IMG/VR virus record: IMGVR_UViG_3300032323_002909
Span: 1-64,000 of that record
Source of the DNA: a virus
Strand: one strand, 5' to 3'
DNA: 64,000 nucleotides
The notes below the pieces were generated by a model. It was given only the letters and a program-made list of their open reading frames with translations, had not been told where the DNA came from and made no database searches. Positions 8,486-20,869 of the stretch are shown piece after piece. How positions within the stretch are numbered: the stretch's first letter is position 1; each line of letters opens with the position of its first letter. A program made the translations under genes and the position numbers.

Positions 8486-8590
8486 ATGACACTTATAGCA
8501 ATAATACTTACACTTTTTTCACTGGAAACTAGAACAATTATTTTACCACTTGCAACTGTTGGAGCATGGATATACGTTTGGATGCATTAA
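8486..8590 (+). CDS. Single-pass membrane peptide, 34 aa (paralog of 16055-16153)
   Basis: The short frame encodes a hydrophobic peptide with the pattern LFSLETRTI then a second hydrophobic half ending in WIYVW. A second copy at 16055 has the same layout (LFALESRSI, then SSWIYYF), which supports both as real genes. The stop codon is the first triplet of the next class-A element. Confidence 0.55.
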   Translation: MTLIAIILTLFSLETRTIILPLATVGAWIYVWMH

Positions 8591-8618
8591 AAACCACATT
8601 ACCATAACCACACACGAT

Positions 8619-8798
8619 ATGAGACAATACACAAACCGATTGATTGAATTAGTAGAGGAAGGTATCTTAGATGCTGAAAACGTAATGAGAGCTTGTCTTA
8701 GTTATATGTCAGAGCATGAAGTTCAAGACCTATGTGAGAGTGAAGGATATATCGAGGAAGAGGAAGAAGATGAATCTGGTATTCCTTGGGAAGAATAA
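8619..8798 (+). CDS. Acidic small protein, YMSE family (paralog of 15149-15337)
   Basis: The 59-aa product has ELVEEGILDAENVMRACLSY followed by MSEHEVQDLCE and an acidic tail. This helical pattern recurs in phage hypothetical proteins, and a second copy lies at 15149. The start is the ATG at 8619, 13 bases after the class-A element; upstream in-frame codons cover that element and are not used. Confidence 0.7.
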   Translation: MRQYTNRLIELVEEGILDAENVMRACLSYMSEHEVQDLCESEGYIEEEEEDESGIPWEE

Positions 8799-8848
8799 AA
8801 ACCACATTAAAGTAATTGCGCTCCCTGCAACAACAACCATAAACACAC

Positions 8849-9130
8849 ATGACTAACCAAATTGATACAAGCAACCCACGTCACGCCGCAGCATACACGC
8901 TTGCAGCAGGACATTTTCTCTCTGACCTTGGAGGCTACGAGGGTATGGAATTGGAAACCCTTCTCAACCTCGATGAGGATGATGCAACTCCAGAGCAGTT
9001 GGCGAAACGCAGCAAGATCATTCTGTGGGGTGTCTTTGAAAGAGGATGTGACCGTATGGATGATCCATATCTTTACGTTGCTGACATTATTGAGATGTTG
9101 GCACTTGATTTTCTCAACTTCAACGCCTAA
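8849..9130 (+). CDS. Hypothetical acidic protein, 93 aa
   Basis: The start follows a class-A element (8796-8813). The protein is acidic and helical (ELETLLNLDEDDATPEQLAK). Another open frame exists one base over, but its protein is basic and low in quality. No family is recognised. Confidence 0.65.
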   Translation: MTNQIDTSNPRHAAAYTLAAGHFLSDLGGYEGMELETLLNLDEDDATPEQLAKRSKIILWGVFERGCDRMDDPYLYVADIIEMLALDFLNFNA

Positions 9131-9187
9131 TAAAAACCACATTAAAGTAATTGCGCTCCCTGTAACAATAAACAACTAACTACTACT

Positions 9188-9388
9188 ATGACCTACAAAG
9201 TATTTAATGCCAACCTCGTCTTAGGTGAGAATCATGTTCAATCAAATCTCCGCACTATCTTGACTCGAAAAGAGACTGATGTGATTGAGAGTCTGATGCT
9301 TGCCCTCTCTAATGCAGGTATCGAGCTTCCCATCAAGGAAACACAAATTGCGTTGGAGGCTTGTGCCGACGCCTTGGGTAACAACTAA
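9188..9388 (+). CDS. Hypothetical protein, 66 aa
   Basis: This frame follows the class-A element at 9131-9148, whose downstream bases (AAAGTAATTGCGCTCCCTG) match those after the previous copy, showing duplication of the leader. The product is helical and slightly acidic. The next gene lacks its own element and is probably co-transcribed. Confidence 0.65.
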   Translation: MTYKVFNANLVLGENHVQSNLRTILTRKETDVIESLMLALSNAGIELPIKETQIALEACADALGNN

Positions 9389-9414
9389 TCAACAACAACT
9401 AACTAACTACTACT

Positions 9415-9918
9415 ATGCCAAACTGGAACGAAAATCGCCTTGTAATCAAAAACGACACTCCTGCTCTACGTGACTATCTCAAAGAGAACGGCTTGAGCTT
9501 CAAGAAAATTGCGCCACCCGCTTGTCCAGAAGAGCGCGATGAAACTGGATGGAACATCGTTGCCGCTCAAACTGCTGCTTGGGGAACTAAGTGGGATCTG
9601 GATGACAACGAACAAAAACACGCTGCCAACGATCTTATCGAAAACGGTGAATGCAGATTCGATACCGCTTGGTCTCCTCCTATTGAGGCTATCGCCAAAC
9701 TCTCAGAACAGTTCCCAGAAGTTGATTTTGAGCTTCATTACAACGAACCAGGCTGTGCCTTTTATGGGACTGCTTACATCTCTGATGGCGTGGTCAATGA
9801 TGAATGCTCTAACATTGGAGACAAAGACGATTATTTCTCGTTCTTGGTTGAGTTTATGGGTCATGATCAAGAGGATGCGGAAGAAGCCGCAGGTCTTCAT
9901 GAAGACGAAGAAGAATAA
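9415..9918 (+). CDS. Ferredoxin-like DUF1281/YubB-type protein
   Basis: The 167-aa product begins MPNWNENRLVIK, has WGTKWDL near residue 55 and F-D-T-A-W-S-P-P near residue 83, then FELHYNEPGCAFYG. These match the DUF1281/YubB (Api92-like) family of ferredoxin-fold proteins in plasmids and phages. Family members usually have MPNWC; here Cys is replaced by Asn. The C-terminus is strongly acidic. Function is not established. Confidence 0.82.
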   Translation: MPNWNENRLVIKNDTPALRDYLKENGLSFKKIAPPACPEERDETGWNIVAAQTAAWGTKWDLDDNEQKHAANDLIENGECRFDTAWSPPIEAIAKLSEQFPEVDFELHYNEPGCAFYGTAYISDGVVNDECSNIGDKDDYFSFLVEFMGHDQEDAEEAAGLHEDEEE

Positions 9919-9972
9919 ACTTTCTATTGCATGGTAGTAAGTCCTCTCCCCTTGGTGGTGCTTGGGGAGAGG
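9918..9972 (+). other. Conserved hairpin element 1
   Basis: AACTTTCTATTG (9918-9929) precedes a perfect 9-bp stem CCTCTCCCC/GGGGAGAGG (9943-9951 and 9964-9972) with a 12-base loop containing TGGTGGT. The same arrangement recurs at 16450-16517. No T-tract follows, so it is not a plain terminator; attenuation, RNA stability or a small RNA are possible. Confidence 0.55.
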
Positions 9973-10009
9973 CAATCTTAAAAACCACATTACCATAACC
10001 ACACACGAT

Positions 10010-10405
10010 ATGATTACCAAAAACAATATGATCCCCACATTTACTCCAGATCAAAAAATCGAAAATCTCAAACTTGCTATCAAGGCACTGAGGGAGAATC
10101 CGATAAAGGCAAAACATAAAATGACAGATGAGTTGGGTGGTCGATGCTGCCTATGTGTCATTGCTCATGTTGCTGAAGATATCTGTGGTGTCAAGAGGAA
10201 TACTTTCTGTGACTTTCTAACACCAAATATCAATTTGAATAAAATTTTTCCATTCGATAATGTTAATGTCGGTGATAACATATTCTTACAAGGAGAATAT
10301 GCTAGTAATTGGAACGATGGGTGTAATGTAAAGGAAAAGACCCATGCAGAAATTGCTGACATGATCGAAGAGGAATTTATGATTACTGAAAAATCTCCAC
10401 TATGA
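10010..10405 (+). CDS. CCLC-motif hypothetical protein, 131 aa (paralog of 11279-11653)
   Basis: The protein has a helical start (NLKLAIKALRENP), then GGRCCLCVIAHVAED, and near the end ASNWNDG and EKTHAEIADMIEEEF. All are shared with the paralog 1.3 kb downstream. The vicinal Cys-Cys and nearby His could bind metal, but this is inference. The ATG at 10010 follows the class-A element at 9979 with 13 bases between; a second Met is 6 residues in. Confidence 0.72.
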   Translation: MITKNNMIPTFTPDQKIENLKLAIKALRENPIKAKHKMTDELGGRCCLCVIAHVAEDICGVKRNTFCDFLTPNINLNKIFPFDNVNVGDNIFLQGEYASNWNDGCNVKEKTHAEIADMIEEEFMITEKSPL

Positions 10406-10596
10406 ACCAACATACATTTGCTGATCCATCAGATTATTTTCTAAAAATTACTACCCAAGATGGGAAAGAGATTATTATAGAAGATTACGATTATGTCAAG
10501 AACATCGACAACACATTACATTATTTCAAAAATAATGAGGTAATCGCTAAAGGTATTTTCGGCATATCATGCAAAAAATATCCTAAGACTGTGTAA
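10402..10596 (+). CDS. Hypothetical protein, 64 aa
   Basis: It overlaps the previous gene by four bases (ATGA), a translational-coupling arrangement unusual in this region where most genes have their own element. The product is beta-rich (DGKEIIIEDYDYV). No family is recognised. Confidence 0.6.
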   Translation: MNQHTFADPSDYFLKITTQDGKEIIIEDYDYVKNIDNTLHYFKNNEVIAKGIFGISCKKYPKTV

Positions 10597-10623
10597 AAAC
10601 AACTATACTATTGCACCCACAAT

Positions 10624-10770
10624 ATGAACGAAGAACTTGTGACACTACGAAATGAGTTGGCAGATATTTACGAAGAGGTTGAACAATCTCATGGTAAGAA
10701 ATTGCACAAACTAATGGAGAAGGCTTACGAAATTCAAGATAAGATCGCAGAACTCGAAGGACAACTGTAA
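10624..10770 (+). CDS. Small helical protein, 48 aa
   Basis: This frame of 48 codons follows a divergent class-A element (TAAAAACAACTATACTAT at 10594). The product is a single amphipathic helix with heptad-like spacing (LRNELADIYEEVEQ and LEGQL). Its stop starts the next element. Confidence 0.55.
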   Translation: MNEELVTLRNELADIYEEVEQSHGKKLHKLMEKAYEIQDKIAELEGQL

Positions 10771-10794
10771 AGACCACATTAAAATCACGCTATC

Positions 10795-11010
10795 ATGTTG
10801 AAAGAACTTAAACTGTCAAGAGATAAGAACGGTAACAAAATCGTCGTCGTTAAAGTCGATGGTCATCGTGCATTCAGTATTCAAACGAACGGTAACTTGT
10901 CAACGACTCATGTCCATGGCATCACCGAAAACACTTTGACACACATCAAACAATATGTTGATGCCTATGGCACACCTGCACAAAAACGTGCAGTTGAGGA
11001 CATTTTCTAA
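10795..11010 (+). CDS. Hypothetical protein, 71 aa
   Basis: The start lies nine bases after the class-A element at 10768-10785. The product is beta-rich at first (KIVVVKVDGHRAFSIQ), then helical. The YGTPAQKRAVEDI ending resembles helical ends in other phage hypotheticals. Function unknown. Confidence 0.65.
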   Translation: MLKELKLSRDKNGNKIVVVKVDGHRAFSIQTNGNLSTTHVHGITENTLTHIKQYVDAYGTPAQKRAVEDIF

Positions 11011-11032
11011 AAAACCACATTACAATAAGCGC

Positions 11033-11257
11033 ATGATCGAATACATCAAGATTCCTTGTTCTGATTCTTCTCGCATGGCAATCAACATCACAAAGAATGG
11101 TGAACCATTTGGACAACTCTGGTCTTGGAAAGATACCAAGATCGAGCAACATCCTTGGCATGTTCGTCTTCTGAATGGTCGATACAAGATTGAATGGGGA
11201 AAGAATAAATCCCACGCATTGAAGACTCTCAAGACATGGGTAGAATCCCATGCATAA
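11033..11257 (+). CDS. Hypothetical protein, 74 aa
   Basis: The ATG at 11033 is six bases after the class-A element (11008-11026). Tryptophan-rich middle (QLWSWKDT, HPWHV). Upstream in-frame codons cross the element and are not coding. No family is recognised. Confidence 0.62.
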   Translation: MIEYIKIPCSDSSRMAINITKNGEPFGQLWSWKDTKIEQHPWHVRLLNGRYKIEWGKNKSHALKTLKTWVESHA

Positions 11258-11278
11258 AAACCACATTATCATACTACC

Positions 11279-11653
11279 ATGATCGAACTGAAACAAACAT
11301 TCACGGAAGAACAAAAGAAAGAGAACCTTCGTCTTGCTATCAAAGCACTTAGGGAGAATCCCAAGAAAGCATTGGAAGAAATGCAGGACGAAAACGGTGG
11401 TCGATGCTGCCTGTGCGTTATGGCACATGTTGCAGAAGACATCATGGGCTATGAGAGGGATGAACTATGCGGCACTATGAGTCCATTGTTCAAAATGTCT
11501 GATGTGTTCGCAGTCCAAGAATTGGATATGTATCCAGATAATGTCAAGGTTGGTGAATACCTTGCCAGCAGATGGAACGATGGTGGCAATAATATCGAAG
11601 AAAAGACCCATGTCGAAATTGCTGACATGCTTGAGAAGGAATATCTGCAATAA
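11279..11653 (+). CDS. CCLC-motif hypothetical protein, 124 aa (paralog of 10010-10405)
   Basis: It shares LRENP, GGRCCLCVMAHVAED, SRWNDGG and EKTHVEIADMLEKEY with the gene at 10010. The middle segments differ, so the copies are old or under diversifying pressure. Function unknown. Confidence 0.72.
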   Translation: MIELKQTFTEEQKKENLRLAIKALRENPKKALEEMQDENGGRCCLCVMAHVAEDIMGYERDELCGTMSPLFKMSDVFAVQELDMYPDNVKVGEYLASRWNDGGNNIEEKTHVEIADMLEKEYLQ

Positions 11654-11674
11654 AAACCACATTAGAATAGCGAC

Positions 11675-11836
11675 ATGCAACACCTCGTATTTGTAATTCA
11701 CGAAAAATACATCACCTATCGTATGAACGGTCAAAATGGTTCACATCCACTGTGTGGAGATTGCGCCATGGCAGTCATCGACTATCTGAAAAGACTCATA
11801 ACGCATAAGACATGCGAAATCATCAACCATAACTAA
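11675..11836 (+). CDS. Small hypothetical protein with CGDCAM motif, 53 aa
   Basis: The ATG follows a class-A element (11651) by six bases. The product has a beta-rich start (MQHLVFVIHEKYITYRM), a CGDC motif and a Lys-rich helix. The C-x-x-C could be redox-active or bind metal; this is not tested. Confidence 0.55.
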   Translation: MQHLVFVIHEKYITYRMNGQNGSHPLCGDCAMAVIDYLKRLITHKTCEIINHN

Positions 11837-11842
11837 AATCAC

Positions 11843-12004
11843 ATGAAAGAAATTACACCAGAAGATTTGATTGCTTTACGCGAAGAAGAAAGCATTCTTG
11901 ATACCATTCTTCAGATCGGCAAGATTCGTGAATACTTTCCCGAAAAGGCAGATGCTGCTCTGGAAGCTATCAAGGGCATTCATGCCACTCTTTGGGAAGA
12001 ATAA
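11843..12004 (+). CDS. Small acidic helical protein, 53 aa
   Basis: It starts six bases after the previous stop without a full element and so is probably co-transcribed. The product is helical and acidic (EDLIALREEESILDTIL). No family is recognised. Confidence 0.55.
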   Translation: MKEITPEDLIALREEESILDTILQIGKIREYFPEKADAALEAIKGIHATLWEE

Positions 12005-12025
12005 AAACCACATTAGAATACACTC

Positions 12026-12340
12026 ATGCACAAGATTACAAAACAAAAGATGGTAGACTTCATCATGGCACAACCAGATAGTCGTCCAGTAAATATGCTC
12101 ACAAATTTGTTCACACATGGCGAAGATGAATGTGGTTGTCTGATGGTGGAATATGTCAAAGACCTATTTGAAATTGAAAAGGGACAAATTGCTGCTGGTA
12201 TAACCAATATAAGTATCAAAAATGATGACACGAAAATAAAATGTGTCGCGGAACTAGATTTTTCCATGCGAAACTTATTACAATCTTCTTTTGTCAATCC
12301 ATCCAAAACATTTGGTGAACTGAAGAAATGCCTTCTGTAA
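12026..12340 (+). CDS. Hypothetical protein, MAQPDSRPVNM motif, 104 aa
   Basis: The protein starts MHKITKQKMVDFIMAQPDSR and has a CGCLMVEYVKD motif near residue 37. The AQPDSR and CGC-M-x-Y elements recur in phage hypotheticals. The ATG follows a class-A element (12002) by six bases. Function unknown. Confidence 0.65.
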   Translation: MHKITKQKMVDFIMAQPDSRPVNMLTNLFTHGEDECGCLMVEYVKDLFEIEKGQIAAGITNISIKNDDTKIKCVAELDFSMRNLLQSSFVNPSKTFGELKKCLL

Positions 12341-12382
12341 AAACCACATTACAATCCACACAACAAACAAGCACACACTATT

Positions 12383-12859
12383 ATGGGACTCGACATGTAT
12401 CTTAACCGCACGAATCGCACCAATCACACAATCGAAGAATTGCAGGAGATTGACCACGATGGAATAACGCCAGAAAGCCCAGAAGCTGCGCCGTTTCTGC
12501 CTCTCCGCAAGTATGAATATCTGGAGGATGTTTATAGCATCTTTCATCTGGTCGCATACTGGCGCAAATTCAACGCCTTACACAACTGGTTTGTCACTCG
12601 TGTGCAAGGTGGCGTTGATGAGTGCCAACTGTCAGAAATCGACGAGGAGACTCTTGTCGAACTGATTGATGACCTCAAAGCTGTCAGCAAGGGAGAAGTC
12701 ATTGAAGACTTAGAACCTGTCTCTGGTTTCTTCTTTGGTTCTACTGACAAGGATGAGTATTACCTTGAGCAGATCAATCATGCTCTGAATACTTTCGAGG
12801 ATGTTTTGAAGACCTTCGACTTCAAGAAATACCGACTCTTCTACCGCGCCAGTTGGTAA
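12383..12859 (+). CDS. Conserved MGLDMYL-family protein
   Basis: The 158-aa product begins MGLDMYLNR and has HLVAYWRKFNALHNWFV around residues 55-71, a GFFFGSTDKDEYY block near 114 and a C-terminal YRASW. This family is widespread in phages and bacteria and remains uncharacterised. The start is certain from the family; the class-A element lies at 12338. Confidence 0.85.
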   Translation: MGLDMYLNRTNRTNHTIEELQEIDHDGITPESPEAAPFLPLRKYEYLEDVYSIFHLVAYWRKFNALHNWFVTRVQGGVDECQLSEIDEETLVELIDDLKAVSKGEVIEDLEPVSGFFFGSTDKDEYYLEQINHALNTFEDVLKTFDFKKYRLFYRASW

Positions 12860-12880
12860 AAACTACATTAGAATCGTGCC

Positions 12881-13300
12881 ATGTCCGATACATACTACCG
12901 CAACGACACACCACAAAAAGTCCGTGATATTCTCGAAAATGCTCGTATATCAAATACCAGAGTCAAACTTTACTATGGTGATACCAAAAACGGTAAAGAT
13001 TGGATGGAAGAACATCACACAACAGGAAGAATTGGTCGTTCCACTGGTAGAGTGAAGATTCCTATTCTTTTGAGTAACTCACGTTCTCGTGGTGGCGTTG
13101 CAATTTCTGACAACAGCATAGTCAGAATCAAAGTGAATGGTCAAGAAGTCTATCGCCATCCACAATATCACCAGAAGAAGATTGAAATCGTTCGTGATGA
13201 AAAAAATGGTTATGAATACAGTATCAATCTTGATGGGGTGATTTATTCAAGACACAAGACATACAAAAGCGCGCAGTTACTTGCTGGTAAGCTATCGTAA
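12881..13300 (+). CDS. Conserved phage hypothetical protein, 139 aa
   Basis: The start (TPQKVRDILENAR), then RVKLYYGDTKNGKDWMEEH and a TGRIGRSTG block are typical of a phage/plasmid protein family with small beta domains. The second half (KKIEIVRDEKNGYEYSINLD) looks like another beta unit. The class-A element lies at 12857. Function unknown. Confidence 0.72.
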   Translation: MSDTYYRNDTPQKVRDILENARISNTRVKLYYGDTKNGKDWMEEHHTTGRIGRSTGRVKIPILLSNSRSRGGVAISDNSIVRIKVNGQEVYRHPQYHQKKIEIVRDEKNGYEYSINLDGVIYSRHKTYKSAQLLAGKLS

Positions 13301-13321
13301 AAACTACATTAGAATCGTGCC

Positions 13322-13681
13322 ATGCCCACGAAAGTTCGAGTCTACTTTAACCTCCACAAGAAACTCCTGTCCGTTCAAACCAAGGTGAATGGACGATGGA
13401 AAGTCATCAAACATGTTGACGGGATTGCCTTGCGAGATGTTTGTTTTAAGGTCAGTGAAGTAGGAAGACAAAGAGTATTACGTGAAAAACGTAAGAATGT
13501 CCATGCTTTCATTGAGGGCGAAGAATGCCCTTTGTATGGTGACATCAACCGAAAACTTGATTGCAAAGTCACTTACAACCCTTACAAGTATGAAAAGTTC
13601 ACTACTTGTGAAAAATATGTTGACAAAGCAGAATATGCCCGTATTATTGGGCGCACAATCTTAGCAATCAATCCACAATAA
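13322..13681 (+). CDS. Hypothetical protein, 119 aa
   Basis: The protein starts MPTKVRVYFNLHKKLLSVQ and is basic and beta-rich, with a KVRVYFNLHKK-LSVQ pattern seen in other phage hypotheticals. The leader from the class-A element (13298) to the ATG is identical to that of the previous gene (ACTACATTAGAATCGTGCC), evidence of leader duplication. Confidence 0.7.
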   Translation: MPTKVRVYFNLHKKLLSVQTKVNGRWKVIKHVDGIALRDVCFKVSEVGRQRVLREKRKNVHAFIEGEECPLYGDINRKLDCKVTYNPYKYEKFTTCEKYVDKAEYARIIGRTILAINPQ

Positions 13682-13685
13682 CACC

Positions 13686-13832
13686 ATGAAGAATATCAAA
13701 GCATTCATCTTAGGAGTAATCGAATTTAGAAGTCACATGACCACCAGTGTCAGCAATGATCTGATTGAAGTCTATGATCGTGGAAGAGAACTAGCACACC
13801 GTTTGACCTTTCGCAAATTTGAACAGGAATAA
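13686..13832 (+). CDS. Small hypothetical protein, 48 aa
   Basis: This frame starts five bases after the previous stop with no element of its own. The product is helical and basic (VIEFRSHMTTSVSNDLIEVY); that segment resembles short phage proteins I have seen, but no function is known. Confidence 0.6.
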   Translation: MKNIKAFILGVIEFRSHMTTSVSNDLIEVYDRGRELAHRLTFRKFEQE

Positions 13833-13853
13833 AAACCACATTAGAATCGTGCC

Positions 13854-13922
13854 ATGCCTGAAATTAACGACAACGACCTACAAGACTACATCGACTACAT
13901 CGTTTTCGGTGTGACAAAATGA
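13854..13922 (+). CDS. Micro-protein, 22 aa
   Basis: An ATG six bases after a class-A element (13830) opens a 22-codon acidic frame (NDNDLQDYIDYI). Its stop lies in the first copy of the GTGACAAAATGACGCAG repeat. Real status is uncertain, but element and spacing match those of the clear genes. Confidence 0.4.
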   Translation: MPEINDNDLQDYIDYIVFGVTK

Positions 13923-13951
13923 CGCAGTAAAGACCACAATAGAATAACGCT

Positions 13952-14236
13952 ATGACCAGAAACGGACTAATCAATCAGTTACTAATCACCAAACAAGTCG
14001 ATGCTCGATACATGGATGAATATGGAGATATCCACATGGAAAGTCTCGATGTTAGCTATCATCCTGTCTATGAACATGGAGGAGAATACATGGGAGAACA
14101 TTTCCTATTTGAATGGGAAGATGGTGGTGCTACTCTGTGGGTAGATGAAATGGATGAACTGGAGTATTCGGGAGACGAATGGGTATCTTTCCATGATCCT
14201 AACTATGGAACAATCGAGTTCAAGATACCCACGTAA
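13952..14236 (+). CDS. Hypothetical acidic protein, 94 aa
   Basis: It follows the class-A element at 13928. The protein is acidic and aromatic (HPVYEHGGEYMGEHFLFEW, DELEYSGDEWVSF), probably a compact beta fold. No family is recognised. Confidence 0.65.
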   Translation: MTRNGLINQLLITKQVDARYMDEYGDIHMESLDVSYHPVYEHGGEYMGEHFLFEWEDGGATLWVDEMDELEYSGDEWVSFHDPNYGTIEFKIPT

Positions 14237-14267
14237 AAACTACAATAGAATAGTGCCACAATGAATG

Positions 14268-14349
14268 GCAAGGTGGTGGAATTGGTAGACACTACAGACT
14301 TAAAATCTGTTGTTCATTTGAACGTGAGGGTTCGAGTCCCTTCCTTGCT
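14268..14349 (+). tRNA. tRNA-Leu (UAA), no encoded CCA
   Basis: Acceptor GCAAGG pairs with CCTTGC, the D-arm contains GGTGGAATTGGTAGAC, and the anticodon stem ACAGA/TCTGT encloses CTTAAAA (anticodon TAA). The long variable arm and T-arm (GAGGG-TTCGAGT-CCCTT) are typical of Leu. The sequence after the discriminator is ACT, so CCA must be added after transcription, which fits the phage CCA enzyme at 25110-26624. A class-A element at 14234 ends 16 bases upstream. Confidence 0.88.
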
Positions 14350-14376
14350 ACTTAAAGACTACAATAGAATCATAGC

Positions 14377-14565: not shown

Positions 14566-14591
14566 AAGAATAGTGAGACAAAATGACGCAG

Positions 14592-14653: not shown

Positions 14654-14689
14654 ACAAAATGACACACTTACTGTGACAAAATGACGCAG

Positions 14690-14707: not shown

Positions 14708-14714
14708 AATTTAT

Positions 14715-14790: not shown

Positions 14791-14818
14791 CTCATAAAAA
14801 CCACATTAAACTACACCC

Positions 14819-15127
14819 ATGATATTAAACTTAACACCACACTCGATTACTGACACGGTGACTAACACCACATTTCCACCACACGGTTCTACTGTTCCCA
14901 GAGTAGCAACGACCTCTATCCAAGTGGGTGATATTGATGGAATACCATTGTTTGCCACGACCTTTGGTGACGTTCAAGATGCTCCACCAATTCAAGATGG
15001 TGTGTTCTACATCGTCAGTCTATTGGTAAAACAGGCATTACCACATCGTAAGGACTTGCTATCACCAGGAACTCTCGTTAGAGATGACAAGGGCAACCCC
15101 ATTGGATGCAAGGGATTCAACGCATAA
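14819..15127 (+). CDS. Conserved phage protein, 102 aa
   Basis: The protein starts MILNLTPHSI, has a GIPLFATTFGDV segment and YIVSLLVKQALPHRKDLLSPG, then VRDDKGNPIGCKGF at the end. This order (N-L-T-x-H, G-I-P, Y-I-V-S, P-x-R-x-D-L, P-G, G-C) recurs in small phage and bacterial proteins. Function is unknown. The class-A element lies at 14795. Confidence 0.75.
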   Translation: MILNLTPHSITDTVTNTTFPPHGSTVPRVATTSIQVGDIDGIPLFATTFGDVQDAPPIQDGVFYIVSLLVKQALPHRKDLLSPGTLVRDDKGNPIGCKGFNA

Positions 15128-15148
15128 AAACCACATTAAACTGCACTT

Positions 15149-15337
15149 ATGTCACGCTACTACACAAACCAACTGCTGGAAATGATCGAAGAAGGTATCC
15201 TTGATAAGGACACTGTTATTAACGCCTGTCTCTCATACATGTCTGAAGCTGAAGTTCAGGACATGATGGAATCGAATGAGTTCATCGAAGAAGAGGAAGA
15301 AGAGGAGGACGAGGAAGAAGAGGAAGAAGAGGAGTAA
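15149..15337 (+). CDS. Acidic YMSE-family protein (paralog of 8619-8798)
   Basis: The 62-aa product shares EEGILDKDTVINACLSY, then MSEAEVQDM, with the 8619 gene and ends in a nearly pure Glu/Asp tail. The tail is coded by a GAA/GAG/GAC tract that is likely prone to length change. Function unknown. Confidence 0.72.
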   Translation: MSRYYTNQLLEMIEEGILDKDTVINACLSYMSEAEVQDMMESNEFIEEEEEEEDEEEEEEEE

Positions 15338-15352
15338 AAACCACCTTAAACT
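15335..15352 (+). promoter_or_regulatory. Class-A element upstream of candidate ncRNA
   Basis: TAAAAACCACCTTAAACT starts on the preceding stop codon. No coding frame follows; the next features are RNA hairpins from 15361. Confidence 0.6.
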
Positions 15353-15360
15353 ATTGCCAC

Positions 15361-15527
15361 GCCAGTTAATCACTGGCTAGTCGGGGGTGCGAAGCCGATG
15401 ATGAAGCACTGTGATTGGTGTAAAACACTGTAGGTAAATCCTCGCTAGGGGGAGCGTCATCCTTATGTCCCAGAGGGAAACCGTTGAAGGGGCATAGTCT
15501 TTCGAGACAAGGGAATCCCCACCATCT
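15361..15527 (+). ncRNA. Candidate structured RNA in a gene slot
   Basis: Between two class-A elements there are 167 bases with no usable plus-strand frame but several clean hairpins: GCCAGT/ACTGGC (15361-15377), CGCT/AGCG (15443-15456), TCCC/GGGA (15468-15478), and GTCT-TTCG-AGAC with a UUCG tetraloop (15497-15508), the last enclosed by GGGG/CCCC (15489-15520). It is richer in G+C than nearby leaders. It does not match a riboswitch, tmRNA or group I intron known to me. It starts about eight bases after its element, as genes do. Confidence 0.55.
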
Positions 15528-15554
15528 TAAAAACCACATTAAACTGATGGCGTT

Positions 15555-15674
15555 ATGAAATACAAACACTGCACTATCCTCAAGGCAATCACTGGTTACA
15601 ATGTATATTCTTGCAATGACATTCACAATGTCTCTTCTATTACAGAAGCAAAAACACTCATCGACAGTCTGTAA
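15555..15674 (+). CDS. Micro-protein, 39 aa
   Basis: An ATG nine bases after the class-A element (15528) opens a 39-codon frame with two Cys and a Ser/Thr-rich middle. Its stop begins the next element. No family is recognised. Confidence 0.5.
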   Translation: MKYKHCTILKAITGYNVYSCNDIHNVSSITEAKTLIDSL

Positions 15675-15702
15675 AAACCACATTAAACTACTACCACACC
15701 AT

Positions 15703-16026
15703 ATGAAATACAACTGGAAACCTGTTATTAATTCGTTCTTCACCATCGCACTCGCCCATGGGTTCACCCTCCACACTGTAGACAACGGTGATGGCGAGGA
15801 TGTTCTTATGAATACCATCGAGGAAGCAGTGGAAGAAGTCGCTGCCACGGATCAATCTCACGTGGTTCTACTTGCTCCTGATGGCAAGCGTGTGTGGTTC
15901 TTTCTGGTTCTTGGCAACGAGCCATACGAAACGATCTGTGACTACTCTGTCTATGATCTGGCAGACGATGTGCATGCGGAGTTCTCAGACGAATGGGAAG
16001 GCAAACCCTGCCCACAAATCGCATAA
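15703..16026 (+). CDS. Hypothetical acidic protein, 107 aa
   Basis: I chose the ATG at 15703, which follows the class-A element (15672). The protein starts MKYNWKPVINSFFTIALAHG and contains AATDQSHVVLLAPDGKRVWF and an acidic end. The pattern resembles a small alpha/beta domain found in phage hypotheticals. Function unknown. Confidence 0.65.
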   Translation: MKYNWKPVINSFFTIALAHGFTLHTVDNGDGEDVLMNTIEEAVEEVAATDQSHVVLLAPDGKRVWFFLVLGNEPYETICDYSVYDLADDVHAEFSDEWEGKPCPQIA

Positions 16027-16054
16027 AAACCACCGCAAACTATTGCCGCACCTT

Positions 16055-16153
16055 ATGCTGATTCTGATATTACTTTCCTTATTTGCGCTGGAATCGCGCT
16101 CTATAGTATTTGCTGTTGCAATAATAAGTTCTTGGATTTACTACTTCATCTGA
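16055..16153 (+). CDS. Single-pass membrane peptide, 32 aa (paralog of 8486-8590)
   Basis: The frame starts after a class-A variant (TAAAAACCACCGCAAACT at 16024). It shares the Leu-rich start, the LE-S/T-R motif and the WIY ending with the 8486 peptide. One membrane helix, or a helical hairpin broken by the charged LESR, is expected. Confidence 0.55.
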   Translation: MLILILLSLFALESRSIVFAVAIISSWIYYFI

Positions 16154-16184
16154 TAAAAACCACATTAAACTACTGACACACCTT

Positions 16185-16451
16185 ATGACAAACACCGACA
16201 TTATTACTAAGTTCCTCAATGGCGCAATCACTGGCAAGATTCGTCGCACTAACTCCTACACAGGGGGAAATCACACTCCCTTGTTCATCGAGGGCGATAC
16301 CCTCTTTTCCTATGGTCATCACTATGAACTGGCAAAGCGCATGCCTGACGGTTCTGTGTGGGTGAACAATACACGCTACAGCGCAACCACAAGCAAGCAT
16401 GCTTCACTGGTTCGTTCCGTAGCGATTCGCAAGGGCATTGCCCTTTCCTAA
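16185..16451 (+). CDS. Conserved phage protein, 88 aa
   Basis: The protein has LFIEGDTLFSYGHHYELAKR near residue 45 and WVNNTRYSATTSKHASLVRS near 70. The SYG-H-x-x-L-A and YS-x-T-T-x-K-H elements recur in small phage and plasmid proteins. Function unknown. The class-A element lies at 16154. Confidence 0.72.
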   Translation: MTNTDIITKFLNGAITGKIRRTNSYTGGNHTPLFIEGDTLFSYGHHYELAKRMPDGSVWVNNTRYSATTSKHASLVRSVAIRKGIALS

Positions 16452-16517
16452 CTTTCTATTGGTTGACATGGCAAAAGTCCTCCCTCTCTGGTGGTTCGGA
16501 GAGGGGGGCAAGCCATG
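16450..16517 (+). other. Conserved hairpin element 2
   Basis: AACTTTCTATTG (16450-16461) matches element 1 at 9918. A 10-bp stem CCTCCCTCTC/GAGAGGGGGG (16479-16488 and 16499-16508, one G-U) has a loop with TGGTGGT, and an outer stem CATGGC/GCCATG (16467-16472, 16512-16517) closes it. The compensating changes between copies suggest that structure is conserved. Confidence 0.6.
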
Positions 16518-16545
16518 GTAAAAACCACATTAAACTGATGACGTT

Positions 16546-16767
16546 ATGATTCACCTAGCAACACTGCCGCAATACTACCGCACCCGCAAGGGTATCTCTA
16601 TGATCGTGCGTGATTACAACCTACCCTCTGGCAATGCCAAGGGCAAGGGCAACCGTGCGAAACGCCGCCAAGGTCTCTACGTTCCCAACCCCGACCACAT
16701 GAAGCCCTTTGGTCTCATTGGTATGGATCGTGGACAGATCGCTGCCATGATGAAACGCCCTGCATAA
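16546..16767 (+). CDS. Small basic protein, 73 aa
   Basis: The product is Lys/Arg/Gly-rich in the middle (GNAKGKGNRAKRRQGLY), suggesting nucleic-acid contact, and ends in MMKRPA. The class-A element lies at 16519. No family is recognised. Confidence 0.6.
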   Translation: MIHLATLPQYYRTRKGISMIVRDYNLPSGNAKGKGNRAKRRQGLYVPNPDHMKPFGLIGMDRGQIAAMMKRPA

Positions 16768-16791
16768 AAACCACATTAAACTAATGTCGCC

Positions 16792-16947
16792 ATGCTAACA
16801 ATCAATAAAACTTACTACATCAATGGGAAAGCAGTCGTTTTTCTTGGAGAATCAGACGTTAAAGGCAAAGGCTTTTTTCGAGAGCTTGGAGAACCTGACA
16901 CTTTCTTTTCTTATCCCATTTACAAGGTAAGAAAACGCCCTGCATAA
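16792..16947 (+). CDS. Small hypothetical protein, 51 aa
   Basis: It follows the class-A element at 16765. Its last codons (AAACGCCCTGCA) and the following element repeat the end of the previous gene exactly, so the two genes share a recombined 3' end (both finish Lys-Arg-Pro-Ala). Function unknown. Confidence 0.6.
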   Translation: MLTINKTYYINGKAVVFLGESDVKGKGFFRELGEPDTFFSYPIYKVRKRPA

Positions 16948-16968
16948 AAACCACATTAAACTACTACC

Positions 16969-17211
16969 ATGCCCACTGCAACTATCAACCCCAAAGAGAT
17001 CGCGGTAACTCACACCGTGCGTCCCGATGTTAATCGCGAGTTCCTCACCGTCGAATGTCCTAACGGATGGGATGACGTGAAAAAACTCACAAAGAAAGTC
17101 CTGACCTATGAGGATCGCAAGTTCACCTTTTGTAGTTGGAACTCTGACTACAACTACGCATCGTTTGTGTGTCCGTTGAATGGAAAACCATCTATCGCCA
17201 CCATCTCCTGA
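16969..17211 (+). CDS. Conserved phage protein, CPNGWDDVKKL motif
   Basis: The 80-aa product has VECPNGWDDVKKLTKKVLTY at about residues 27-46 and FTFCSWNSDYNYASF after it. I recognise the CPNGWDDVKKL block from short phage and plasmid proteins of unknown function. The class-A element is at 16945. Confidence 0.75.
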   Translation: MPTATINPKEIAVTHTVRPDVNREFLTVECPNGWDDVKKLTKKVLTYEDRKFTFCSWNSDYNYASFVCPLNGKPSIATIS

Positions 17212-17243
17212 GATGGTAAAAACCACCTTAAACTGACTGTGCC

Positions 17244-17417
17244 ATGAATTGGATCAAAGTAAATGATGAGGACGTGTTACACGTCTGGGTAAATGATGAG
17301 ACGAACGAAGAAGTGGAGGTCTCTCCTGACTTCTACGAAAACAACGGTGAACCCTGTGACGACTGTGGCAATGTCCTGAGATATTCCCACACACTGGTAA
17401 AAACCACATTAAACTGA
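17244..17417 (+). CDS. Small acidic protein with CDDC motif, 57 aa
   Basis: This frame is unusual because it reads through most of the next class-A element (17398-17415) and stops at the TGA just inside its end. The product is acidic with a single C-x-x-C. A class-A element at 17217 precedes it. Confidence 0.5.
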   Translation: MNWIKVNDEDVLHVWVNDETNEEVEVSPDFYENNGEPCDDCGNVLRYSHTLVKTTLN

Positions 17418-17424
17418 CTGTGCC

Positions 17425-17799
17425 ATGACTACCATCGAGTTCGACAAAGTTATTACCACCGCTCAATCCAAAACGATCCCTAGCAATGCGCTGGGGATCA
17501 TGAGCATCGCACCAGTCTATGACTGCAATACGCACAAAAACGTGCGTGGTAAAGTCATGCTCTCCTTTCGAATGAGCATTGACAGCACCCGCAATGCAAT
17601 CGAAAATCACAAGATCCTACTCGCTGAAGCACCCTTGGTGCAAGCGTGGTTTCCATCGTATCGTGTTCCATCGCTGGCTCAAATTGAATCGCATCTTAAA
17701 ACGGTTCATCGCATGACTGCCAGCATCAAGCGCGAGGGAGCGATTGCTGAAAGGTCTTTACCATCACCACTCATCGGCATGATGGGCAAGTGGGCGTAA
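17425..17799 (+). CDS. Hypothetical protein, 124 aa
   Basis: The ATG lies nine bases after the class-A element (17398). The leader ACTGACTGTGCC is shared with genes at 17244, 18743 and 19004. The protein is mixed alpha/beta with a basic C-terminal half. No family is recognised. Confidence 0.68.
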   Translation: MTTIEFDKVITTAQSKTIPSNALGIMSIAPVYDCNTHKNVRGKVMLSFRMSIDSTRNAIENHKILLAEAPLVQAWFPSYRVPSLAQIESHLKTVHRMTASIKREGAIAERSLPSPLIGMMGKWA

Positions 17800-17823
17800 A
17801 AACCACATTAAACTTACTGTGCC

Positions 17824-18384
17824 ATGACTACCATGACCACCACCGATACTGCCTCCCCTCGTCAGACGTTCGCCCTTTTCTGTGCCACTGGCAAGGACTG
17901 GCGAAACGCAAACCTATCTCGCGAACAGGTCTCTGCCATGCTTACCGCATGCCAAAGCGTTCGCGGTAACAAGGCTGCTGCACTGGCAATCTGCGAAAGC
18001 GTATTGTCAGGCAAGCCATTGCCATCACCAGCACCAGCAACCCCTTCATGGCAAGCTATCTATGATGAAGCGTGTGCTGCTGGCAAGGCTGCTGCTGAAG
18101 CATGCAAGCCTGAGCCTATGTATGTCGAAGGCTATTCACGACCCATCATGGGTGGCGTTTGTGGCTTCGCTGGGGTGAAGTTTCCCGATGCTCGCAAACC
18201 GTTTGCCAAGTGGCTGGTAAAGCAAGGCATCGCTCGTAAGAACTACGGCACGGGTGTCTATGTCAATATGGGATTCGAGATCGGTGGGCAATCCCTAACG
18301 ATCAAGGAGCATTATGCCAGCGCGTTTGCCAGCGTATGCGCAAAGCACGGTATCGAATGCCGCATGGATAGCCGCATCGACTGA
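17824..18384 (+). CDS. Hypothetical protein with GFAGVKFPDARKPF motif, 186 aa
   Basis: The first 90 residues are Ala/Thr-rich and helical with a proline linker near 68-76. The second half has VCGFAGVKFPDARKPFAKWL, then YGTGVYVNM and GGQSLTIKEHYASAFASV. This order (G-F-A-x-V, R-x-x-F-x-x-W-L, Y-G-x-G, Q-S) is shared by phage and bacterial proteins of unknown function. The gene is richer in G+C than the virion genes. Class-A element at 17797. Confidence 0.7.
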   Translation: MTTMTTTDTASPRQTFALFCATGKDWRNANLSREQVSAMLTACQSVRGNKAAALAICESVLSGKPLPSPAPATPSWQAIYDEACAAGKAAAEACKPEPMYVEGYSRPIMGGVCGFAGVKFPDARKPFAKWLVKQGIARKNYGTGVYVNMGFEIGGQSLTIKEHYASAFASVCAKHGIECRMDSRID

Positions 18385-18410
18385 TCGTAAAAACCACAAT
18401 AAGATCATGG

Positions 18411-18435
18411 CACGGCAAGTCACCTACTTGCCGTG
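18411..18435 (+). other. Leader hairpin 1 between class-A element and start codon
   Basis: CACGGCAAGT and ACTTGCCGTG form a perfect 10-bp stem with a five-base loop, 17 bases before the ATG at 18452. A similar ATGGCACGG-based hairpin lies before the gene at 20271. Translation control or mRNA protection is possible. Confidence 0.5.
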
Positions 18436-18451
18436 TTTAACTACTACCATT

Positions 18452-18718
18452 ATGAGAACACTTGTCCTTAAAACTGTTAGCCATAACTGCAAAGTCTTGG
18501 CGTTTGTATTGAATCGTTGTTACGATCACGTGGCACGGGTGCTGCCTACCATCACACTGATTGTCACGGCACTGGCAATGCTCATCGCTCCCACGCTCAT
18601 CTTGATGGCAATCATCATGCTAAAGCCTGTTGGCGCGATGCTGGCACTGCTTCTGCTGTTGCTTTTCACGTCCTGTAGCTCATGCGTGTTCATGTTGGAC
18701 TACGTGCAACGCCGATAA
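18452..18718 (+). CDS. Two-helix membrane protein, 88 aa
   Basis: Two long hydrophobic segments (about residues 31-50 and 55-77) are separated by a short KP turn, so the protein should form a membrane hairpin. The end has a Cys pair (SCSSC). I prefer the ATG at 18452, after the leader hairpin. An in-frame ATG at 18407 lies one base after the element and would translate through the hairpin. Holin-like size and shape are noted, but lysis genes lie elsewhere. Confidence 0.6.
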   Translation: MRTLVLKTVSHNCKVLAFVLNRCYDHVARVLPTITLIVTALAMLIAPTLILMAIIMLKPVGAMLALLLLLLFTSCSSCVFMLDYVQRR

Positions 18719-18742
18719 AAACTACCTTAAACTGACTGTGCC

Positions 18743-18979
18743 ATGATTGACTATTCAACAAAACCTATGTGCGAAGACGCACCCTGCTGCGGGTGCTGCG
18801 GTCGGGATCGTTTTGAACCTGACTACGGCGATGAGTCTTTTGATTGGATGATGCCACCAAACGGTGCATTTTTCGACGACCAAGATGAGGAAGACTACAG
18901 TCACCAGTGCGATGAGATGGGTGAGGAAGACCGTTACCTTGATGCGTCTTGGGAAGATCGCTTTGATTGCGAAGCGTAA
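18743..18979 (+). CDS. Acidic Cys-rich protein, 78 aa
   Basis: The protein has APCCGCCG near residue 13 and long Asp/Glu-rich stretches. Cys-Cys-x-Cys-Cys suggests metal binding. It starts MIDYS, and the next gene starts MIDYV with the same leader, so their 5' ends share an origin. Class-A element at 18716. Confidence 0.65.
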   Translation: MIDYSTKPMCEDAPCCGCCGRDRFEPDYGDESFDWMMPPNGAFFDDQDEEDYSHQCDEMGEEDRYLDASWEDRFDCEA

Positions 18980-19003
18980 AAACCACCTTAAACTGACTGT
19001 GCC

Positions 19004-19234
19004 ATGATTGACTATGTCTCTACCAGCGAGGGTGAAGGTTACTTCACCGTGAACGGCAAGCGTGGGTTCTCCTGCGCTTGCGTATTGGATATGTTCCTAC
19101 GTGGGATTAAAGCAAGCGCAACGGCATTGCCTATTCTCACCGAGTGGAAAGCCAAAAAGGGTGTTAAAGCAATACGTGCTGAAGCAGCATGGGAGCGTTT
19201 CGCAAACGACAACCCAGAGCTAAGTCACCTGTAA
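19004..19234 (+). CDS. Hypothetical protein, 76 aa
   Basis: The start and leader match the previous gene (ACTGACTGTGCC then ATGATTGACTAT). The body differs: a CAC motif followed by a basic helical half (TEWKAKKGVKAIRAEAAWERF). No family is recognised. Confidence 0.65.
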   Translation: MIDYVSTSEGEGYFTVNGKRGFSCACVLDMFLRGIKASATALPILTEWKAKKGVKAIRAEAAWERFANDNPELSHL

Positions 19235-19258
19235 AAACTACCTTAAACTGTCCATACC

Positions 19259-19543
19259 ATGAATACCATGTCACACACCACCACCGCTACTACCATCGCT
19301 ACCATGCTCACCGCTATGGAAAAAGACGCTCACGCTATTTACGCTGCTGCTCGTGCGCATGCTGCTGATACTGCTGCTGCTGCTCGTGCGCATGCTGCCT
19401 ATCTTAGTTACGCCCCCAATCCTGATGCTGCTGCGCATGCACGTGCGCATGCTGCTTATGATGTTGCCGTCGAAGCTGAACGCGCTCGGAATGTTGCTGC
19501 GCGGGTTCTTTATGCTATGACTAACCCGATCTGTGGTTGTTAA
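19259..19543 (+). CDS. Alanine/histidine-rich helical protein, 94 aa
   Basis: From residue 27 on it is built of near repeats ARAHAAYD/ARAHAADT, encoded by a G+C-rich GCTGCTGCTCGTGCGCAT-type DNA repeat. A single long helix is expected. The start (MNTMSHTT) and leader are shared with genes at 19871 and 20493. Confidence 0.6.
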   Translation: MNTMSHTTTATTIATMLTAMEKDAHAIYAAARAHAADTAAAARAHAAYLSYAPNPDAAAHARAHAAYDVAVEAERARNVAARVLYAMTNPICGC

Positions 19544-19567
19544 AAACCACAGTAAACTGTCCATGCC

Positions 19568-19846
19568 ATGAATATCACCATCACATCCGCACCCGCGCCA
19601 GCATTCAACTGGAAAGAATTTAAGGCAGCTACCCTTGCCAAGGGCAAGCTACCATATGCCATCTGGTATGCCAAATCAGGGGTCGAGTGCTACGTATGCA
19701 CCGATGACAGCGACTTGAACTCAGTCATCAACGACTGCCGCGCAGGTGCCTCCATCATGGAGGAGAGCTATTTCGAGTGTTACGTCGATAGCAGTGGCAA
19801 GTTCTATTCCGAAAAGTCCCGCTGGTGCGGAGTCTATAGAGGTTAA
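19568..19846 (+). CDS. Hypothetical protein, 92 aa
   Basis: It follows the class-A variant at 19541 (TAAAAACCACAGTAAACT). It has four Cys spread over a mixed alpha/beta sequence and a helical middle (DLNSVINDCRAGASIMEE). No family is recognised. Confidence 0.65.
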   Translation: MNITITSAPAPAFNWKEFKAATLAKGKLPYAIWYAKSGVECYVCTDDSDLNSVINDCRAGASIMEESYFECYVDSSGKFYSEKSRWCGVYRG

Positions 19847-19870
19847 AAACCACCTTAAACTGTCCATACC

Positions 19871-20203
19871 ATGAATACCATGACACACGCCACACCCGCC
19901 CACGCGAAATATGCCACCCGCCTCGAACTCCACCACGACTGGAAAGTCGTGCGTGGGATCGTTTTGAACCTCTGCGATGCGATGGAGCAATTAAACTCCA
20001 CTGACGCAGATGACTCGCTACTACAGTGGAGCAACCTGAGCAGCAGCAAGTCTGCTTATGGCTTCGCACGGAAAGCACTGCGCGAGGTCGTGCTTGCACA
20101 GTTCAATTTCGATCTTGATACGGTCGATGTGAACTGGGGAGGTGCTGGTGGTAGTTGGGCAAACGATGTCAAAGAGGTGCTTGTGCAGCACCTAGTTGCC
20201 TGA
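19871..20203 (+). CDS. Hypothetical protein, 110 aa
   Basis: The first codons repeat those at 19259 (MNTM-H). The body is helical with a Ser/Leu-rich middle (DDSLLQWSNLSSSKSAYGF). The stop (TGA) is followed directly by the next class-A element. No family is recognised. Confidence 0.65.
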   Translation: MNTMTHATPAHAKYATRLELHHDWKVVRGIVLNLCDAMEQLNSTDADDSLLQWSNLSSSKSAYGFARKALREVVLAQFNFDLDTVDVNWGGAGGSWANDVKEVLVQHLVA

Positions 20204-20225
20204 TAAAAACCACCTTAAACTGATG

Positions 20226-20249
20226 GCACGGTGAGGCGTCTCACCGTGC
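20226..20249 (+). other. Leader hairpin 2 between class-A element and start codon
   Basis: GCACGGTGAG and CTCACCGTGC form a perfect 10-bp stem with a GCGT loop, 21 bases before the ATG at 20271. It shares ATGGCACGG with hairpin 1, though the stems differ further in, as expected if pairing matters more than sequence. Confidence 0.5.
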
Positions 20250-20270
20250 TACCCAATAACTACTGAACTT

Positions 20271-20468
20271 ATGAAAAGCATTACTCATCACCAAGTCAAG
20301 ATCACAAAAGCAAAAGTCATCGCTAGCAAGCGCGGCGTGACGCAAGGGGGATTGAACATCTCACTTGTCAATGGTATCAAAGTCCTGTGGCAAGCCAAGG
20401 GCAACAAGGTGGCAGTGTTCTCATCACCCTTGGAAGGTGAGCAGAACCTACTCGGAACTCTGGCATAA
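20271..20468 (+). CDS. Small basic beta-rich protein, 65 aa
   Basis: A basic N-terminal half (HHQVKITKAKVIASKRGV) is followed by beta strands (KVLWQAKGNKVAVFSS). It could bind nucleic acid. It is expressed through the hairpin leader from the element at 20204. No family is recognised. Confidence 0.6.
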   Translation: MKSITHHQVKITKAKVIASKRGVTQGGLNISLVNGIKVLWQAKGNKVAVFSSPLEGEQNLLGTLA

Positions 20469-20492
20469 AAACCACAGTAAACTGTCCATACC

Positions 20493-20729
20493 ATGAATAC
20501 CATGCCACACACACTCTGGAGCTTGTCCCGCGAGCAAGGTTTCACCTATGCGCCCAAGGGACTGAGTCAAGTCTATGCCGTTGTCCCGATGTCACACGGT
20601 GACTTCGCTGCCGTCATGCACGGTCTCGAACACCTTAGCGACCACAGTATCAGGCAACGCTACCAAGACGGCAATCGAATGATTGTCATCTTGGACAAGG
20701 CAAGCCAAGGTGTCCCATACGGTAATTAA
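20493..20729 (+). CDS. Last gene of the small-gene array, 78 aa
   Basis: The leader and first four codons copy those at 19259 and 19871 (CTGTCCATACC then ATGAATACCATG). The body has PMSHGDFAAVMHGLEHL and ends basic. An intrinsic terminator follows. No family is recognised. Confidence 0.65.
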   Translation: MNTMPHTLWSLSREQGFTYAPKGLSQVYAVVPMSHGDFAAVMHGLEHLSDHSIRQRYQDGNRMIVILDKASQGVPYGN

Positions 20730-20747
20730 AAACAACCGCTGATTCTC

Positions 20748-20783
20748 AGCCCTCAGTGTCTTCGGACGCTGGGGGCTTTTTTT
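20748..20783 (+). terminator. Intrinsic terminator at the end of the small-gene array
   Basis: AGCCCTCAGTGTC and GACGCTGGGGGCT pair around a UUCG tetraloop, followed by seven Ts. It is the only strong Rho-independent terminator found in the array and closes the plus-strand transcription from 8 to 20.7 kb. Confidence 0.9.
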
Positions 20784-20810
20784 GTTTTTAGGCATAGGTG
20801 GTTTTTACGA

Positions 20811-20869
20811 GGGGGGGGGGTCTGTTAGGAATAGGATAAAAACTACATCGGGGTGGGTGGGTAGGGGGG
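20811..20869 (+). other. G-rich boundary: ten-G run and G-quadruplex motif
   Basis: Positions 20811-20820 are ten consecutive G. At 20850-20869 four G-tracts of at least three are separated by one- or two-base loops (T, T, TA), a canonical G-quadruplex pattern. It follows TAAAAACTACAT (20837-20848), the upstream half of a class-A element whose -10 half is replaced by the G-tracts. Just before, at 20800-20810, the reverse strand carries GTAAAAACCAC. Confidence 0.75.

Follow-up and report, generated by a model that had tools for sequence, protein, structure and literature searches.

One gene, one putative promoter: an array of box-bearing promoter-like elements in an uncultured T4-superfamily phage and its relatives

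Why should nearly every gene in a stretch of phage DNA be preceded by its own copy of the same short sequence, set on the stop codon of the gene before? The question is raised by the uncultured virus record IMGVR_UViG_3300032323_002909 (150,461 bases), whose first 64 kb (64,000 bases) form the window analysed here, and in which a first-pass annotation had described more than 40 near-identical 18-bp promoter-like elements at 8588-20848. Here we describe the element and its geometry, and elaborate on what is new: equivalent arrays, recognized by sequence in uncultured relatives, each with its own version of an upstream box. Judged by its sequence, the element is very probably a promoter.

The array consists of a single element repeated, as had been claimed. 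With at most three mismatches, its consensus TAAAAACCACATTAAACT gives 36 matches, all on the plus strand, against 0.29 on average and never more than 2 in shuffled sequences. An iterated weight matrix run over all 150,461 bases gives 41 good plus-strand copies, at 2491, at 7772 and, for the other 39, within 8588-20483; it finds no comparable copy in the remaining 130 kb of the record and a weak minus-strand match at 20790. The count of more than 40 is thus right for the whole record, while the interval to which it was assigned holds 39 copies plus a degenerate one. Where an ORF (open reading frame) ends near a copy, its stop falls on the first base of the element in 24 of 30 cases and one codon earlier in three more, in agreement with the first-pass description. 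The genes at 9415, 11843 and 13686 lack a copy of their own, as previously listed, and the gene at 10402 has to be added. Copies also sit ahead of the transfer RNA (tRNA) genes tRNA-Leu and tRNA-Met and of two non-coding stretches (a hairpin at 14616 and a 169-base region at 15359-15527); the latter, formerly called structured, folds no better than its shuffles (z -0.6). The array is closed by a strong intrinsic terminator (20748-20783, with a 13-bp stem and a T run), and no terminator of comparable strength was found on the plus strand inside it.

For numbering, copies were aligned on their last base, with +1 as the seventh base after the terminal hexamer. Ten positions are fixed or nearly fixed among the 41 copies (T-24, A-23, A-22, A-21, A/G-20, A-19, C-18, C/T-17, A-16 and C-15). 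Six of these (A-23, A-22, A-21, A-19, C-18 and A-16) are invariant, and the other block positions deviate in 1 to 8 copies. The reported fixed block AAARACYAC, centred about 10 bases above the -10, is borne out by these counts. The box of this phage, AAAAACCAC, occupies about -24 to -15 and ends two or three bases above the -10, with two semi-variable bases between block and hexamer. Positions -15 to -13 read C, A or C, and mostly T; an extended -10 (TGn) was not found in the window's phage. Within the hexamer, A-11 and T-7 are present in all 41 copies and T-12 in 39, with -10 and -8 free to vary; the perfect TATAAT at 2503-2508 had been located correctly. Above -25 the copies of the window's phage hold at most 0.22 bit per base, so there is no -35 element, as stated earlier (TTGACA was not found).

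The predicted start carries a signature of its own. A pyrimidine at -1 is present in 39/41 copies, a purine at +1 in 40/41, and both together in 39/41. Among copies without ATG at +1, this step occurs in 26/28, compared with 28/134 (21%) of control TAnnnT hexamers in the same DNA; with distinct contexts counted once, it occurs in 19/21 against the 21% of the control (P about 2e-11). On the strength of A-11, T-7 and the +1 signature, the hexamer is taken as a sigma70-type -10 box. At copies 34 and 40, a transcript beginning at +1 would have a perfect hairpin at its 5' end, which is consistent with the start site and does not prove it, because the DNA stem reaches one to three bases upstream of +1.

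Start codons lie at preferred distances from this predicted start. ATG is at +1 in 13 of the copies, at +4 in 10 (14 if ATGs out of frame are passed over) and at +8 in six, so the gap to the start codon is mainly 6, 9 or 13 bases and not 8-16 as first described. The frequent coincidence of start codon and predicted +1 had escaped the first-pass annotation. Shine-Dalgarno-like words are no commoner ahead of starts across the whole phage (5/163) than in a control stretch (8/163), and the earlier remark on their absence thus extends phage-wide. Other promoter classes of this phage are placed alike: exact TTGACA promoters with ATG near +1 precede nine ORFs, in seven cases in the form TTGACA-16-hexamer-6-ATG, and outside the array TAAATA is found with ATG at offset 6 at 31 genes, against about 0.4 expected (40 in a separate count). 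The array, TTGACA and TAAATA promoters thus seem, from their sequences, to share one geometry, with the start at or near ATG. The predicted messenger RNAs (mRNAs) would be leaderless for a third of the copies here and for most copies in the relatives. Copies and landmarks are as follows (+, plus strand).

2491-2508 (+): copy 1, TAAAAACTACAATATAAT, ATG at +1
7772-7789 (+): copy 2, -10 GATAAT, ATG at +8
8588-8605 (+): copy 3, beginning of the dense array, ATG at +8
8796-8813 (+): copy 4, leader of 29 bases
9131-9148 (+): copy 5, leader of 33 bases
9979-9996 (+): copy 6, after a hairpin, ATG at +8
10595-10610 (+): diverged copy TAAAAACAACTATACT ahead of the gene at 10624, identified by eye, below the matrix threshold
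10768-10785 (+): copy 7, ATG at +4
11009-11026 (+): copy 8, ATG at +1
11255-11272 (+): copy 9, ATG at +1
11651-11668 (+): copy 10, ATG at +1
12002-12019 (+): copy 11, ATG at +1
12338-12355 (+): copy 12, leader of 21 bases
12857-12874 (+): copy 13, ATG at +1
13298-13315 (+): copy 14, ATG at +1
13830-13847 (+): copy 15, ATG at +1
13928-13945 (+): copy 16, ATG at +1
14234-14251 (+): copy 17, ahead of tRNA-Leu (14267-14351)
14353-14370 (+): copy 18, ATG at +1
14592-14609 (+): copy 19, ahead of the non-coding hairpin (14616)
14690-14707 (+): copy 20, ahead of tRNA-Met (14715-14790), the sole copy without a purine at offset 7
14795-14812 (+): copy 21, perfect consensus, ATG at +1
15125-15142 (+): copy 22, perfect consensus, ATG at +1
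15335-15352 (+): copy 23, ahead of the 169-base non-coding region
15528-15545 (+): copy 24, ATG at +4
15672-15689 (+): copy 25, ATG at +8
16024-16041 (+): copy 26, -10 CAAACT, ATG at +8
16154-16171 (+): copy 27, ATG at +8
16519-16536 (+): copy 28, after a strong hairpin, ATG at +4
16765-16782 (+): copy 29, ATG at +4
16945-16962 (+): copy 30, ATG at +1
17217-17234 (+): copy 31, ATG at +4
17398-17415 (+): copy 32, ATG at +4
17797-17814 (+): copy 33, ATG at +4
18388-18405 (+): copy 34, predicted transcript opening with a 9-bp hairpin (18412-18434)
18716-18733 (+): copy 35, ATG at +4
18977-18994 (+): copy 36, ATG at +4
19232-19249 (+): copy 37, ATG at +4
19541-19558 (+): copy 38, ATG at +4
19844-19861 (+): copy 39, ATG at +4
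20204-20221 (+): copy 40, predicted transcript opening with an 8-bp hairpin (20228-20247)
20466-20483 (+): copy 41, ATG at +4
20748-20783 (+): intrinsic terminator closing the array
20837-20854 (+): degenerate copy without a -10 box, past the terminator
115-142 (+): for comparison, ordinary promoter TTGACA-16-TATAAT without box, ATG149 at +1
23009-23014 (+): for comparison, late-type TAAATA, ATG23020 at offset 6

Two of these copies directly follow intergenic hairpins that lack a T run, at 16465-16517 (-34.6 kcal/mol for a 70-base stretch) ahead of the copy at 16519, and at 9943-9972 (-23.5 kcal/mol for a 60-base stretch) ahead of the copy at 9979; a role in 3' end protection or processing is possible. 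Past the terminator, positions 20790-20860 contain a reversed partial box, a G run and the degenerate copy, and look like a decaying array edge.

An exact pattern scan of IMG/VR with the box AAAAACCAC gave 74 contigs with one match each and no array, and relatives were therefore sought through the capsid protein, which gathered many uncultured ones (the contigs named here are G002-G005, G007 and G015). A pattern scan for the non-coding region at 15.4 kb gave single matches to a short word only. The nearest cultured capsids are those of cyanophages, at about 32%, and when the array DNA was compared with cultured phages in a distant search, it gave only short scattered matches covering about 2% of the query. 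Four relative contigs contain equivalent arrays of 60-115 promoter-like copies. G002 (96,954 bases, capsid 91%) and G003 (207,489 bases, 85%) have arrays with the box AAAAACTA[GCA], and G004 shows the edge of one such array; the box is TTAAAACCGA in G005 (206,590 bases, 72%) and AAACACTA in G007 (202,205 bases, 74%). The motif search proposed in the first-pass annotation confirmed the array in its own record and found arrays in relatives, which carry other versions of the box. As relatives are about 205 kb long, the window's record is probably a fragment.

Within each phage the box version is uniform, and it switches between phages while the -10 and the start geometry stay unchanged. A search with a mid-array gene gave 25 loci, a few of them from the same phage or near-identical, with boxes of the AAAAACTAG type in 16, TTAAAACCGA in two, AAACACTA in four, TAGAATTAAGA in one and none in two. 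The single TAGAATTAAGA locus (L246) has its box directly above the -10, where it precedes protein genes and follows tRNA genes. The left part of every box is A-rich, and in G002-G005 and G007 the box ends two or three bases above TAnnnT. A-11 and T-7 are present in 63, 115, 60 and 64 copies of G002, G003, G005 and G007, and are kept in 347/379 block copies across six contigs. In all six box-bearing contigs ATG is most often at +1 (12/40, 39/63, 78/115, 3/5, 41/60 and 41/64, the counts for G002, G003, G005 and G007 being 39, 78, 41 and 41). Where the relatives have no ATG at +1, the pyrimidine/purine step occurs at offset 7 in 19/24, 30/37, 2/2, 11/18 and 14/23, and is much less frequent at offsets 6 and 8. 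The role in transcription that had been proposed is supported by these relatives together with the +1 statistics. In the more distant G015 (capsid 60%) there is no box, and TTGACA promoters again have ATG near +1.

A few copies in the relatives bear directly on the nature of the hexamer. Six box copies, from G003, G005 and G007, have an exact TTGACA at 16 bases above the -10, against about 0.3 expected; this points to a sigma70-type -10 and puts the box within the spacer. The earlier suggestion that no sigma70-type factor is involved is not supported, since the -10 obeys sigma70 rules, the TTGACA-16-TAnnnT promoters share its distance to ATG, and these few copies combine box and TTGACA.

We consider it probable that each copy is the promoter of the next gene, with a sigma70-type -10, a start at or near ATG and a box read by a phage factor. 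Host RNA polymerase with a sigma70-type factor would open the DNA at the -10 box (TAnnnT), and transcription would start in vivo at the seventh base after it, on the ATG or a few bases before, producing a leaderless or near-leaderless mRNA. The fixed block from -24 to -15 would substitute for the -35 element, and would most likely be bound by a lineage-specific, phage-encoded protein acting with RNA polymerase; a polymerase-associated factor of this kind, an idea already raised in the first-pass annotation, is the favoured candidate for the reader. RNAs would run on towards the terminator, with only the 5'-most gene well translated. Given the lack of Shine-Dalgarno sites, genes lying within a longer RNA would be translated poorly and each gene would need its own promoter, usually built onto the stop codon of the preceding gene. 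One promoter per gene fits such leaderless translation, because ATG sits at or near +1, Shine-Dalgarno sites are lacking and the other promoter classes are alike. The whole pre-late gene set of one phage would answer to its own box. Extended to an uncultured T4-superfamily clade, in which pre-late genes would be controlled by a box read by a phage protein on host polymerase, box and reader would co-evolve as a private code per lineage and messages would be mostly leaderless or nearly so, a generalization that is about as likely as not.

Several observations weigh against a phage-read promoter at every copy. Many of the -10 boxes agree with TATAAT at only four of six positions. In G003 (L175) the tRNA genes at 59626 and 59721 begin directly after the -10, and position +7 would already lie inside them, so transcription of these two must come from read-through. 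In G000, G002 and G003, copies resemble their neighbours more than they resemble distant copies (0/2000 shuffles), from which it follows that local copying had at least some part in the growth of the array; such copying makes neighbours similar, and the copies are not fully independent. No box reader was found among the conserved proteins of box-bearing phages.

The strongest competitor, though unlikely, dispenses with a phage factor: unmodified host polymerase would read the promoters, the block serving as a direct contact or as an A-rich spacer element that offsets the absent -35, and its versions reflecting different hosts or drift kept uniform by copying. The sigma70-type -10, the +1 signature and the occasional TTGACA fit this well, as do the homogenized neighbouring copies and the A-rich left side of all boxes, and host polymerase reads T4 early promoters, which likewise have extra conserved positions (PMC2988021). 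On the other hand, the block is absent from the ordinary TTGACA promoters of this phage (0/9), and the right half of the box differs among related phages while the -10 and the late promoters are constant. To our knowledge, a near-invariant 10-base block at -24 to -15 corresponds to no known sigma70 element, which also counts against a host-only explanation. Alternatively, the block could be an operator, at which a phage repressor bound above the -10 of every pre-late promoter silences the set at once, in the manner of stoperators. One identical spacer site per promoter is well placed for a steric block, and its versions would track the repressor; yet most copies lack a -35 and would be weak promoters unless helped, the block is not palindromic, unlike the usual dimer site, and no repressor was identified, which makes this option more doubtful still.

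An element acting in RNA, as a cleavage or ribosome-loading signal that yields leaderless messages from one long transcript, would account for the fixed spacing to ATG, for an array interior without a comparably strong terminator and with one at its end, and for the G003 tRNAs that directly abut the element. The A-11/T-7 rule, the +1 step even where there is no ATG, and TTGACA at 16 bases are traits of DNA promoters, and leave such a signal very improbable. Hardly more credit, and if anything slightly less, goes to the proposal that the repeats are mainly recombination joints, stop-promoter modules for copying and swapping cassettes that are alike through copying and not through function. The similarity of adjacent copies in three phages fits it, as does the supply of stop codons by the box in one or two frames (in G003, TAA at -24 for 49 genes and TAG at -17 for 29). 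Copying would, however, also freeze positions -10, -8 and -6 to -2, which vary while A-11, T-7 and +1 stay. Copying at such joints may well be how the array grew, beside its promoter role.

The phage belongs to the T4 superfamily by its gp23-like capsid, gp20-like portal, gp55 late sigma and TAAATA late promoters. The gp55-type late sigma (match to T4 gp55 at 3.6e-14; a clamp gene is also present) was the only sigma-like protein found, and fits the separate TAAATA promoters, a class apart from the array element. Five records gave no match to a multisubunit polymerase beta-type subunit (PF00562; controls matched in 14, and the window's record is probably a fragment) or to MotA and AsiA (in a search in which no control passed the cut-off), and no match to a single-subunit RNA polymerase was found (PF00940; the control gave no match either). 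The 48 proteins that G003, G005 and G007 share and G015 lacks were candidates for the reader; among those scanned there are phosphoesterases, RNA ligases, homing endonucleases, ThyX and proteins of unknown function, but no clear regulator. A helix-turn-helix protein adjoining the array (768-1808) has two apparent LAGLIDADG motifs (GLVYADG and GLFEGDG, by eye) and is for this reason probably a homing endonuclease, and the HEYAH-motif protein (A4) adjoining the array in relatives looks like a metalloprotease.

Other features of the window concern the host and the neighbouring genes. A phage protein with a PEP-CTERM sorting signal (5133-5627; TIGR02595 above cut-off) suggests an exosortase-bearing host; a genome scan with this protein for a host gave no match. 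Capsid matches in metagenome-assembled genomes, considered as a host clue, fall in unrelated phyla and are probably misbinned. A fifth tRNA gene (8312-8386), missed by ARAGORN, is above threshold in Rfam. Five consecutive small ORFs of tetrapeptide repeats (VRDS, VWGS and similar) occupy 3710-4850, with a near-identical TAAATTATG-like leader ahead of each, and a similar repeated word, GATTGGGATAGT, occurs in G015.

The array adds a clear phage case in which promoters of all three classes (array, sigma70-type and late) seem to begin transcription on or close to the ATG, which would account for nearly every array gene needing a promoter to itself. A box that switches between phages provides a natural experiment, with a regulator and about 100 sites changing together, and related phages with the same design and a different 'password' make a private phage promoter code testable. 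The reader, if real, would represent a novel type of polymerase-appropriating factor, and could be put to use in an orthogonal promoter system. The short motif also allows early regions to be recognized and annotated in an uncultured phage group.

Among known systems, no description of the array element was found in the open-access literature searched. The SAS and ESAS (start-associated sequence and its extended form) of Cluster K mycobacteriophages (PMC3203893) are similar in being short repeats before many start codons with subcluster-specific upstream versions; SAS is tied to translation initiation, whereas the array element has a promoter signature and no Shine-Dalgarno-like sequence. GcrA and related sigma2-domain activators (PMC7403470), which bind sigma-RNA polymerase and read promoter DNA, offer by analogy a possible model for a reader near the -10. 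The T4-type late promoter TATAAATA (gp55, gp33 and gp45) forms a separate class in this phage, and the array element is not TAAATA. The T4-like early promoters (T4, RB69, RB49, RB43, 44RR and Aeh1; PMC1524935, PMC2988021) are similar in that they are numerous and strong, have a phage-specific consensus, stand ahead of many small unknown genes and tRNAs, and keep A-11 and T-7 with a variable -12 (PMC1524935). They differ in having a -35 (GTTTAC), TGn and UP regions, where the array element has no -35 and a block at -24 to -15, and in that the array puts ATG at or near +1 with no Shine-Dalgarno sequence seen. In T4 middle promoters (AsiA/MotA) a phage element likewise replaces the -35 beside a sigma70 -10, but the MotA box has its centre at -30 and stands about 12 bases above that -10 (PMC2988021), and the array block ends two or three bases above it. 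The first-pass distinction from T4 early, MotA and late promoters is thus upheld. By its sequence the array resembles T4 early and middle promoters and yet fits neither, since a -35 is absent and the box stands immediately upstream of the -10; it represents a novel form of the T4-type pre-late promoter.

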